Positions 35,395 to 55,626 of a stretch of 64,000 nucleotides of DNA are shown here, piece by piece. This DNA is from Hydra vulgaris (Eukaryota > Cnidaria > Hydrozoa > Anthoathecata > Hydridae). Every line of letters begins with the position of its first letter. Position 1 is the stretch's first letter. The position numbers and the translations under genes were made by a program. The notes beneath the pieces were generated by a model. That model was not told where the DNA came from. It was given only the letters and a program-made list of their open reading frames with translations, and did not search any database. The stretch is taken from positions 41,713,501 through 41,777,500 of the forward strand of contig NC_088933.1 of NCBI RefSeq assembly GCF_038396675.1, read 5' to 3'.

Positions 35395-35615
35395 CTTTAG
35401 GCCATGGCGCTCTATACTGAAGGCCTATACATCGCGCAACCGTAAGCCGTGACTGGGGGCCTATTTTAATATTCTAAAAATTGCGAAGGTAAAAAGCTCA
35501 CATTGAAAAACTTGTCGGAGAATTTTTAACTTCTTCAAATTAATCTAGTTTATTCTTTTGTATTTCTAATACTTTGTATTATTAATGTTTTTTTAATTAT
35601 AAATTTTTTTTCAAT

Positions 35616-35704
35616 TATATATAAATATATATATATGTATATATATATATATATATATATATATATATATATATATATATATATATATATATATATATAT
35701 TTAT
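35616..35704. repeat. (TA)n microsatellite, target of hAT3
   Basis: TA repeat within the left arm of P2. The ZBED-type hAT starts immediately after it. Confidence 0.9.
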
Positions 35705-35862
35705 AAGGGCCCTGCGAATCGGCATTTTTAGTTTCGAATCTCGAATCATTGCAGGTCTTGATTCGCGAATCAAATCACGAATCGAATCACCAGTTGAAAG
35801 AAATTTAAGTTTTTTATCTTTTTTTTTATGTATACTATACAAAATATTACAAAATTTGAATG

Positions 35863-37216
35863 TTATTTGAACAAACTCTTTTTGTTACTTCTAACCCAAA
35901 TTAACCGTTCCGCATTTTGCTCGGAAAGACTATTGCGTTTACTGTCAATCACTCCTCCTCACACATAGTTAATTCTCAGAAGAACAATTTGCAGCTTGAA
36001 CAGCAAGAAAATTAATTGCAGCTTTGAGTAATAAAGGGAAAATGTAACGTTTGTTTTTCCAGTAGAGAATAGAACAATCAGAACGTCTTCACTTAAATCT
36101 AACCTCATTTCCAACTGTGTAGTAAGATCGTCAACAAATTTACCTATCCCTCTTTTATCCATTAAGCGAAGATAATTTTTCAAAGTTGTAGTGCAAGGAT
36201 AAACTAAACTAATGCTTACGCTTTTTTCCGCACTTAGTATAGTAGTGGCTTCAGATATTGCATTTAAAATAGGAGTGACTGTTGTTAATAATTGCACTTG
36301 TATTTCAGTTGGACAAGTCGGTGGCACTTTCATACAGTTTTTTTTTTGTGAACACTCAACTAGAGCTATTTCTATAGAACCATAATTTTTTAAAATCCAT
36401 TCCAATAAGTTAGAAGTGCTGTTAAAGCGCGTTTCCACATCCATTGGAGGCTTTGACTCAGGTTTTCCTTGAGAAATCTGATACTTTTTGAGAGCTGTCT
36501 GTCCAACAGATGATGAGTGAAAAAATCCTACTATTTTATGAGCCTTGCTAATTAATGTAACGAGAATTGATTGGTTGTGTATAGCTGATTTCACACAAAG
36601 TTGGAGTTTATGAGCACAACAGCCTTGCCAATCAATCCCAAGAAGTTTAATTGTGCATGGCATACTAGGAGTAGTATCGGTTGTAGCTCGGAAAATATTA
36701 TCTGAAGTCAAGTCAAATTTTGACAGTACGTTTCTTAAAATTTCTTCAGTGGAAGTAGCTTTTTGACAAGCATTTATTACTTCCAGATTAGAATCATGCT
36801 GTTTATCAGACAACTAATAAACAGCATGGTTCTAAAACTCAAAAGGATGAAATAAAGCGACAAGTAGAAACAAGGAAGTTATCGCCATTGTCGGCTTTAA
36901 AGTGATCAAAAGTGATGCTAGGTTTGGAGATAAACTGGCTTTTTTTATTTATACTTTGTTGGAAGTTAATATATAAATCATCGACTATATCACCTAAATT
37001 TCGAGATAAAGTGGTCGTGTGTGGTGGATGGTATTGCCCTTGAGTACGCACCGAGCACAGATTAATAAAGCCAGATCCAGAAGTTGTCTCAAATGATCTT
37101 CCATCTTCAATTATAAATCTAAGCACTGAACTATCGTAATTTTTTTTAATAACTGTATCTATTGGAGGTTGAATAAAATACAAATTTAACGAGGAACTTG
37201 ATGATTGCTCGATTGT
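35863..37216 (-). pseudogene. hAT3 transposase, ZBED-like, main part
   Basis: The frame 37219-36839 has RFIIEDGRSFETTSGSGF and YHPPHTTTLSRNLGDIV, the segment following the BED finger in ZBED transposases. The frame 36813-35959 has RATTDTTPSMPCTIKLL, then WQGCCAHKLQLCVKSA, the C-x2-H box of hAT enzymes, plus MDVETRFNSTSNLLEW. A third - frame near 35915-35863 reads VIDSKRNSLSEQNAERLIW, the dimerisation motif. Frame breaks occur near 36830 and 35990. Acidic residues of the core appear partly lost (TDTT in place of a TDNA-like box). Confidence 0.8.
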
Positions 37217-37638
37217 CACTGTGAACCAGAGAGACCGCCAGGTTTTATGTCATGTCACTCAACCAAAACTTTTTTCATTAGTTTAGTATTAGTTTATATT
37301 GATCATTAAAAATGTTTTTTAAATCAAAATTGTGTGTTAACATGTAAAAAATGATAGTTAAAAGCCTTGAATAAATGCTTAAAAAAGCTACTAAAAAATC
37401 GGTATAAAAAAGTCGTCGTAATGACGACATAAATTGTGGGTAATGAAAAGCGTAAGTCTTATGCAAGAATAACAATAAACAACGGGTGTCTTCTATCAAG
37501 TGATACAAATAACTTTTACTTATACTTATAATTTTTTATTATAATTTTTCTCAAAATTACATATTTTTTATAAAACCATGTCATTCGAAACAAGACGCCC
37601 GTGTTATTTTTTGGATTTAACTAATGTTTTAATCATTA

Positions 37639-37698
37639 GCTAGCAGCAGCCATTTTCATTTAAATTTTATTTAATAAACGAAAATGGCTGTTGCTAGC
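37639..37698. repeat. Hairpin at the presumed start codon of the CACTG element
   Basis: Arms GCTAGCAGCAGCCATTTTC (37639-37657) and its inverted copy (37680-37698) with one mismatch. The right arm contains the ATG at 37684. Confidence 0.8.
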
Positions 37699-53340: not shown

Positions 53341-53812
53341 TGTAAAAGTTTAAATCACATAATATATATTGCATTTAGGCCTAAGAATCACTATTTGTTT
53401 GTTTGTTTCATTTCTATTCCGTACTTTGACCAGAATATTTGAAAAAAAGTTAACTTTCTATAATTCGAAAATCTCTCTAATTCGAACTTTTTTTTTTCCC
53501 CGTTAAATTCGAATTAGACAGATTGTACTGTATTGATATTTTGAAAACTTTTTAATGCCGTTTGTATGAAAACATAAAATAATTTAAATAAAAGAATGAT
53601 TCGAAAAACTCGAATCATTTTTTTCGAATCGAATCTCGAATCGAAGCGACATTTGATTCGCGAATCGAATCGAAGCGATTCGCAGGGCCCTAATATTTAC
53701 TACATTTATTATGACTGATATGAGTAGTGATCTATTTGACAAAAACGTGTTTGAAAATTTTATTTTATGGTTTGCGTATTTTTATATTCTCTTAAATAAT
53801 TATCCTTTATAG

Positions 53813-54780
53813 ATGCCAAAAAAGTGTTGTGTATATGGCTGCAAAACTAATTACCAAAGTACCAAAAATAATAAAAGCTTTGAAAAAATACCAGTTTATT
53901 GTTTTCTTAAAGATAAAGAACAAAGAAATATTTGGATAAAAAGTATTCCAAATTCTAATCTTTTAGTTTCAGATGAAACTGTTATTTGCCAATTACATTG
54001 GCTAACGATTTTTGAAAAAGTTACTGTTCAAGGGAAATAAAGACCGAAAATGCCTGTATGGTCAGGAATACCCTAAAGTCAAATACCTACTCCATTACCA
54101 CGTCATCGCACAACATGGAAATCTTTAAGCATTGTTAGAAATGTTAGAACTGATGAACTTAGCACTTTTTTATTGGCTGATACAGCAACGTACATTGATT
54201 TTTAAAACGTTTTATTAAATAATCTCAGGGTTTTTTTAGTTTCAGTAATAGCATATATGATTGAAAAAACAATTAATGTTCAATCTATTACGTTTTATGA
54301 TACTATTCCTTTATTTCTTGTTAAAATTTTTGAGAATTTACATTTTGAAACATTTCATTGTGAAAATGTTTTATAAAAAGTTAGTGTAAAATCGTTTAAA
54401 TATTGTTGATTCTTGGTCAAGGTTTGAGGAAATACAACAATTTAACCCTGATGTCATGGAAATAGACCATAAGAAAAACATTATTCAGCAACAAATATCA
54501 ATTATTTCTGCAAAACTTATTGGAAAATATATATATATCTGATACAATTATACGTAGTTGTGAATATTTTTCAACATCTCGTGCTTTATACAATAAACTA
54601 AGAAACGATTTTCAATTGCCGTCGCATAATATCAAAAGTTTGCAAAATTGATAATGCTAGTTTCTTAGACTCAGTTTTTACTTTTTTTAAATTTTTTATT
54701 TTTCTTCAAAACATTGAAGAAAAATAAAAAATTTGTATAATTATTCATGATAAAGTATATGTCAAAAAAATGATGCTTTA
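53813..54780 (+). pseudogene. P2 transposase, THAP domain and linker, broken
   Basis: MPKKCCVYGCKTNYQSTKNN with the first Cys pair, then NIWIKSIPNSNLLVSDETVI and CQLHWL with the closing Cys-His. It stops at 54038. Beyond the stop the same and neighbouring frames read PKMPVWSGIP, SIVRNVRTDELSTFLLADTA, FENLHFETFHCENVL and CEYFSTSRALYNKLRNDFQL, parallel in order to P1. There are at least four stops and an A/T-rich local insertion near 54680-54730. The THAP sequence is close to that of P1. Confidence 0.8.
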
Positions 54781-54782
54781 CC

Positions 54783-55349
54783 ATGGTAGAACATTGTTTG
54801 GTAAATCGTATAAATCACACATCACTGTTGTTATCTTTAAATATTGACATGGACTCTTTTGATTTTAGTTCAGGTCATGAGTGTGCTTCTTCTACATATG
54901 TTTTATGTGAAGCAGGTAGTGAAATATTTGACAATTTAGAAAAACTAGAGTCATCAATTTCTGATACTACCAAAATGTCTTTGATTTATATTGCTGGTTA
55001 TGTATGTAGAAATGAATATAATGAAAAAATTTTGTTCAATCAGACATTACTTTATTGTGAAAAGTTTGGTGAGTACCTGAAGTCTATAGATCGTGGTGGT
55101 CTTAAAATTCCACCAGACAATGTTTGCAAATGGGTTTTTTTTTGCTTTGTCTTATTCCATTCGATAAAAGATAAAGTTTGTTGTAAATCCTTAAGTGGCA
55201 TCTTTTTGCTTGTTTCTGAATTTTACTATTTTGAAATTAATCAAAAACATTGCAACACACTTGCTAATATATTTTTAAACGATTTTTGTGCACAAATTAC
55301 ACCAAGATCTAATAAAGAACCTGCATTAAAAGTTTTAAAGTTATCATAA
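54783..55349 (+). pseudogene. P2 transposase C-terminal part after an internal deletion
   Basis: The first few codons still belong to the region that in P1 reads LLYHYGTIFG (here another frame gives LYHGRTLFG, about 54776-54803). The frame then jumps to HTSLLLSLNIDMDSFDFSSG, which in P1 lies more than 400 codons later. The catalytic RNase H region is therefore deleted. The rest is intact and parallels P1: MSLIYIAGYVCRNE, DRGGLKIPPDNVCKWVFFCF and the ending TPRSNKEPALKVLKLS. It cannot be catalytic. Confidence 0.85.
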
Positions 55350-55560
55350 ATTTGTTTAGAAAAGAATGATTTGTATCTGTTATTGTTAAAATATATGCAA
55401 ATATTTTCTTTGTTTTAATTTTTTTTTAATATAAAATTTTAACTATTAATTACATTTTAATATAAATATTTCTAAATAAACTAATTAAACTCTTTAAGAG
55501 TCATACTTTGACTCCAAAATATAATTTTATAGCAGAGTTGCTGATAATCCGTAAAAAATA
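55350..55560. other. P2 3' noncoding region
   Basis: AT-rich, between the stop and the right terminal repeat. AATAAAC near 55475 may serve as a poly(A) signal. Confidence 0.4.
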
Positions 55561-55626
55561 ATAGGCCCCCAGTCACGGCTTACGGTTGCGCAATGAATAG
55601 GCCTACAGTATAGATCGCCTTGCTTT

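Follow-up and report, generated by a model that had tools for sequence, protein, structure and literature searches.

The stretch of DNA analysed here, a window of 64,000 nucleotides from the Hydra vulgaris genome (G000:C14:41713501-41777500), holds a nested stack of transposable elements. The P-type element P2 contains the hAT-type element hAT3, hAT3 contains a pogo-like element, the pogo-like element contains element B, and B contains the degenerate P-type element P3; a CACTG-ended element and element A form side branches (Table 1). Our analysis indicates four levels of insertion specific to this locus, with the fifth level, P3, brought in as cargo by B (probability about 0.94). A preliminary description of this DNA had proposed an insertion history of five levels; the first four stood, with empty sites found elsewhere in the genome, and the P3 level did not, the same B/P3 junction being present at all 39 other scored loci. 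Nest depth, used as a transposon clock, works here for four levels and fails for the fifth because P3 was inside B beforehand: the carrier of an older element adds a level without a local insertion. Other copies were searched for in the home genome (911.5 Mb, 15 contigs), and each search scored the best 40 candidates, which is the scope of every count of scored matches below.

The evidence for P3 as cargo comes from the recurrence of its junction with B. A junction query (junction at position 310 of 841) was spanned at each of these 39 loci, at 26 of them with 99-100% identity. When B was used as the query without P3, all 40 scored matches, the window's own included, stopped at the P3 edge. 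The shared junction and the lack of any match across a P3-less site imply that B and P3 travel together. Excising each layer and comparing the remainder with other copies, the check proposed in the preliminary description, thus yielded P2, hAT3 and pogo-like copies without the inner layers, and no such copy of B for P3. All 20 B copies that were fetched hold P3, a biased count, as they were selected with a P3-containing query; the P3-less query and four further B-ended elements (L052-L055) are the fairer evidence, and among these four L053 holds P3 and the other three hold an internally deleted P3.

Five successive local insertions, with P3 entering B after B had arrived, would account for the P-type ends of P3 and for its physical position within B. 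The same junction at every other scored locus speaks against this history, as does the P3 duplication being seen only in one diverged copy, L051, and we consider it very improbable. A single segmental duplication of the window site could be an escape from the first objection; the differing flanks and 2-bp duplications of the B loci argue otherwise, and because the flanks differ the loci are not one large duplication.

P3 had been listed as an exception without a target duplication, and this was borne out: its ends are readable, its flanks in the window agree at 4/8 positions (chance 0.19), and a probable cause was found in a 60-bp deletion. L051, which is the most diverged among the fetched B copies, has a P3 with the ends CACAACC and CACGGCC that sits between two perfect copies of the 8-bp sequence TGTGTGAC. 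Of the 18 fetched copies that can be read at this point, 17, all but L051, agree with the window copy in joining the right end of P3 directly to B sequence 60 bp further on. The comparison of these copies suggests that the difference arose by deletion in the amplified lineage and not by insertion in L051; the deletion would have taken the right end of P3 together with that duplication, and the window P3 would lack a duplication because of it. On this view P3 entered an ancestor of B as P-type elements ordinarily do, with an 8-bp duplication, and the deletion came before B amplified. The THAP match of P3 (0.0086) is under the cut-off. The zero divergence of the palindrome at the left end of B, set against the diverged arms of P3, was tried as proof that P3 predates the arrival of B and was found unsound in part, since the palindrome is private to the window copy and dates itself; the conclusion was nonetheless borne out by the shared B/P3 junction.

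B is a young family. Sixteen of the 20 fetched copies, which are mostly best matches to the junction query, differ from the window B by 0.3-0.9% substitutions outside microsatellites, and the other four by 1.6-3.8%. Both B ends were found in 16 of the 20, and 13 of these 16 have identical 2-bp flanks (nine TA and one each of AA, AT, GT and AC); the later-fetched L052 to L055 have the duplications AA, TA, TT and TA, in that order. CCCAYRTG-type motifs form arrays at the element's ends: 35 of the 37 matches in the window adjoin them, 22 on the left and 13 on the right, and 11 of the 22 left matches belong to the inverted half of the palindrome. No transposase of its own was recognised in B, and no autonomous partner was found among L052-L055; the B sequence of L053-L055 has no open frame of at least 110 residues beyond the P3 piece and one in the right-end repeats. 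B was probably moved by a transposase supplied in trans.

As a tentative and rather speculative picture of the family, B may have amplified recently, with the copies read bearing a P element that was captured and disabled, or what remains of it. A candidate transposase would recognise the CCCAGTG ends with their subterminal CCCAYRTG arrays and would leave 2-bp, TA-preferring duplications, and the palindrome could record the aberrant fold-back of a transposase-cut end, either at insertion or before it. Alternatively, B could be a composite transposon, in which two end-elements of one family mobilise the DNA between them: the two ends have in common only 12 bp and the motif arrays, and the right end has an imperfect foldback. 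We consider this improbable, as no inner CCCAGTG end was found for a right-hand element, the left palindrome, once a hint of a complete left element, is private to the window copy, and the B copies read have one overall structure in common.

At two loci, L042 (C11:13040677-13048500) and L043 (C5:24087533-24095356), B lies in near-palindromic targets (GGCTATAGCC in L042, longer in L043), a hint that the preferred target comprises more than TA. Two B right ends at C7:3392276-3393514 were considered as a small foldback element and rejected, since the ends face each other 121 bp apart; with this the composite reading of B lost a supporting observation, and the pair represents either two neighbouring insertions or a rearrangement.

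The four outer levels are supported by empty sites and by host frames that rejoin on excision, as had been proposed. At 84-93% identity, each of the 39 pogo-like copies scored besides the window's own runs through the B site without B, and in a second search all 39 cross the A site without A. Removal of B joins the DDE_1 domain of the pogo-like gene (2.5e-23; 83.0 bits, versus 36.4 and 40.3 bits for the separate sides), with a spacing of 30 residues between D2 and D3 after joining; this joined reading also passes one frameshift upstream of B. The gene additionally has a CENP-B_N match (2.5e-6), and a PDB sequence search with its protein returned nothing. When A is excised, the frame stays open across the join, beside an apparent splice acceptor.

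For hAT3, 18 other matches (counted by hand) run unbroken through the pogo-like and CACTG sites at 68-94% identity; of the remaining scored matches, some span a single site and others none, and no pieces but those of the window itself terminate precisely at the joins. Excising the CACTG element reopens a hAT3 frame of 152 residues. The hAT3 profiles are weak (zf-BED 5.8e-4, just under the cut-off; DBD_Tnp_Hermes 0.03), the profile search gave no match for the hAT dimerisation domain, and no credible relative was found by PDB sequence search. Other genomic copies of the CACTG element have the same two ends. When a CMC transposase was looked for in it, no credible Pfam match was obtained, and the fold model of its protein was unusable (predicted local distance difference test score, pLDDT, 38.8). 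A CACTG-type family at 73% identity (e.g. C15:42009358, C12:33504629, C11:37729804, C7:986801) gave several identical scores, which suggests recent activity and a possible autonomous relative.

P2, the outermost layer, has terminal inverted repeat (TIR) arms with 58/63 identical positions and a THAP gene starting at 53814 (THAP E=1.6e-9 in the profile search). Among seven other P2 loci fetched, a single match runs through the hAT3 site, with hAT3 absent, in L005 and L011, and L007, L008 and L010 are collinear across it in two pieces. Few loci cross the site in one match because it sits in a TA microsatellite. Excised P2 is collinear with P1, a P-type comparator outside the nest (THAP start 410 versus 414), as far as the point where P2 has lost about 1 kb internally.

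Every named boundary of the layers was recovered in the sequence, and the layer intervals are nested, none crossing another, so that the nested stack with readable boundaries described earlier was confirmed, together with the sizes of its target duplications (8 bp, 6/8, for P2; 8 bp, 7/8, for hAT3 at 35697-35704 and 53693-53700, ATATTTAT/ATATTTAC; TA for the pogo-like element, TTGT for the CACTG element, AT for A and AA for B). None of 4000 random 40-nt end pairs equalled the TIR score of P2, hAT3, the CACTG element, the pogo-like element, A or P3, and one equalled that of B; the pairs were drawn at random and are not best pairs, which makes the evidence look too strong for short repeats like the 12 bp of B. 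The chance of the target duplications among random pairs was 0.012 for P2, 0.0018 for hAT3, 0.0085 for TTGT and 0.089 for a 2-bp duplication. Taken singly, the duplications are modest evidence for insertion; the motif arrays at the B ends, the rejoined frames and profiles, and the empty sites elsewhere are stronger.

Table 1. Elements of the nest and the comparator P1, in positions of the window
Feature	Host or place	Position	Strand	Remarks
P2, P-type element	outermost	35403..55622	+	flanks CTTTAGGC/CTTTGCGC, 6/8; about 2.2 kb after excision
hAT3, hAT-type	P2	35705..53692	-	TIR 16/17; about 2.1 kb after excision
CACTG-ended element (Chapaev-like ends)	hAT3	37217..40831	+	109-bp TIR, 102/109; TTGT/TTGT
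pogo-like element (Tigger-type)	hAT3	41287..53530	+	24-bp TIR, 23/24; TA/TA; 2.3 kb after excision
A	pogo-like element	42318..45610	none	AT/AT duplication; TIR; CAACGT arrays at ends
Long interspersed nuclear element (LINE) 3'-end relic	A	43280..43800	-	broken reverse transcriptase-like C-terminal reading, identified by eye
B	pogo-like element, between catalytic D2 and D3	46065..52688	+	AA/AA; 12-bp terminal repeat
Perfect palindrome	B, left end	46065..46624	none	280+280 bp, no mismatch, no spacer
Long inverted repeat	B	46780..49662	none	arms: 703 matches, 67 mismatches, 108 gap columns
P3, degenerate P-type	B	49869..51459	+	tblastn to P1 protein; right end at the putative deletion breakpoint
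P1, P-type comparator	outside nest	25284..30624	-	8/8 duplication CGAAAAGT; THAP 3.5e-10; holds two inserts

Several points weigh against this reading. With the best 40 candidates scored, copies that carry the same inner layer but rank lower could have escaped notice, and the whole analysis rests on assembled sequence. Only two of the seven other P2 loci cross the hAT3 site in one match; L006 has lost the site, and in L009 the flanks are about 680 bp apart. The P2 duplication matches at only 6/8 positions, and that of hAT3 is weak, its chance rate rising to 0.013 given the AT-only left flank (TA microsatellite). One of the 18 hAT3 matches extends just 23 nt past the pogo-like junction in one direction, and identity is under 76% in several of them. 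Three of the 16 B copies with both ends (L034, L045, L050) have no matching 2-bp duplication, and the informative P3 duplication occurs in one B copy only, L051. As to age, nearest-copy identity measures the distance to a relative, not the time since insertion.

The insertion order supported by nesting is P2, hAT3, then the pogo-like and CACTG elements, then A and B inside the pogo-like element; nesting gives no order for CACTG versus pogo-like, or for A versus B. Nearest-copy identities (P2 91%, to its nearest full copy; hAT3 94%; pogo-like 93-94%; A 96% over 1-2444; B above 99%; CACTG 90% in the sole other full-length match and up to 96% over parts) fit this order loosely, and the divergence suggests that B is the youngest layer. 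We propose that P2 landed at the locus and that hAT3 inserted into its 5' region. The pogo-like element and, separately, the CACTG-ended element would then have inserted into hAT3, and A and B, both with 2-bp duplications and without a recognised transposase, would have entered the pogo-like gene. A very probably landed with an old LINE relic already inside, and B very probably landed recently as a preassembled unit with a dead P3 aboard. All four rounds were probably ordinary cut-and-paste insertions, each step presumably transposase-mediated.

The possibility that the stack or the palindrome arose from misjoined or fold-back reads was considered together with the palindrome itself, which is perfect, spacer-free and missing in the 23 other B copies whose left end can be read. 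Its right (inverted) half is absent in 19 of 19 such fetched copies (L048 has no readable left end) and in L052-L055, 23 of 23 in all, the sequence there being ...ATTG/CATTGCG with small variants to the left; the palindrome is thus private to the window copy. For the whole stack an assembly artefact is very improbable: misjoins would not yield matching flanks, empty sites elsewhere and rejoined frames. The palindrome ends at CCCAGTG termini, and its inner copy ends exactly at the terminal base of B, which a random fold-back of reads would not favour. A fold-back peculiar to this copy is more likely than an error of assembly, and the exact end at the terminal base hints at fold-back of a transposase-cut end; for the palindrome alone, an artefact keeps a minor though real share of the probability. 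Near-zero-spacer palindromes number six in the window versus none in each of 20 dinucleotide shuffles. Five are short, at 18929-18983, 33315-33355, 44215-44256, 49655-49702 and 50039-50077, with arms of 18-27 bp, at most two mismatches and spacers of 0-8 nt.

The side branches given in the preliminary description were upheld in part: the CACTG element and A were inserted locally, while A and B already had the LINE relic and the long inverted repeat, respectively, as native parts. Two other A copies of full length match in a single piece (92-93%); a further seven cover positions 1-2444 (or 2446) at 93-96%. The LINE relic (about 960-1480 of A) falls within unbroken matches of other A copies and therefore belongs to the A family. 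Likewise, the long inverted repeat is native to B because four other copies (L037, L039, L041, L044) align through it in one piece. No transposase was recognised in A. The patterns of the B and A ends and three protein queries gave no useful relative in viral_contigs, and the A-end pattern gave three chance-like matches in genome_contigs, in records of 51-60% GC and without the second end. The A interior (42569-42767, 43838-43910, 44892-45034) holds, by eye, 42-bp repeats reading as 14-residue repeats, and the same stretches contain AG-preceded exon-like pieces, one with GT after it; these may be fragments of captured genes or what is left of a gene that belonged to A itself.

Nested transposons and the use of nesting as a relative clock are already known. 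In the available text of the TinT paper, element-in-element insertion orders transposon activity (PMC3014933), and nested-insertion patterns have been analysed in Hydra too, where a single transposon class accounts for 334 Mb (36.6%) of the Hydra vulgaris AEP genome, as excerpted from PMC12220107. Our case resembles these chronologies in taking the order from nesting and, for the latter, in the same kind of genome; it differs in treating one locus with base-level boundaries, where depth misleads if the cargo is older (compared with the excerpts of PMC3014933 and PMC12220107). This locus contributes a clear case of a deepest level that is inherited cargo, and a young cargo-bearing B family without a recognised transposase. 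Counts of nested pairs should first test for recurrence at the same internal position in other copies.

The individual layers resemble known systems to differing degrees. P elements are matched by THAP in P1 and P2, by 8/8 duplications in P1 and in the P3 of L051, and by TIRs starting with CA in P1, P2 and that same P3; in contrast, P2 and P3 are broken, and P3 is cargo of another family. hAT3 resembles hAT elements in having an 8-bp duplication and a short TIR. The CACTG element, likened by its ends alone, has the CAC...GTG ends and a duplication within the 3-4 bp that the excerpt of PMC4079192 gives for Chapaev/CMC elements. Tigger elements are polyphyletic according to the portion of PMC7325037 at hand, and "pogo-like" is therefore the better name; the TA duplication, CENP-B_N with DDE_1, and the D2-D3 spacing agree with pogo-like Tc1/mariner elements in that portion, whereas the window copy is interrupted by A and B. 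For B, the excerpted accounts of the Ac/Ds macrotransposon (PMC3260210) and the foldback element Tm1 (PMC3169594) offer precedents for the movement of large cargo of foreign origin and for a nested element within foldback ends; the likeness is by description alone, and B differs in its 2-bp duplications.

Outside the nest, the core profiles of P1 (TNP-like_RNaseH_N 6.1e-4 and TNP-like_GBD 9.7e-4) are both short of the curated cut-offs, and a PDB sequence search with P1 matched the THAP domain only. Its insert i1 at 26863-27793 has the TIR CAGGCCTTCCCAGG and a CACTGT duplication, and its removal rejoins a 431-residue frame; insert i2 at 29571-30507 has an HTH_psq match (5.3e-8) and a TA duplication. 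A reverse transcriptase match (RVT_1, 7.4e-13) lies immediately to the left of the nest at 33509-34003. A 21-bp minisatellite at 16515-17809 (61.7 copies, 99% matches) lies within a 468-codon open frame and reads as the repeat YQLETAV.

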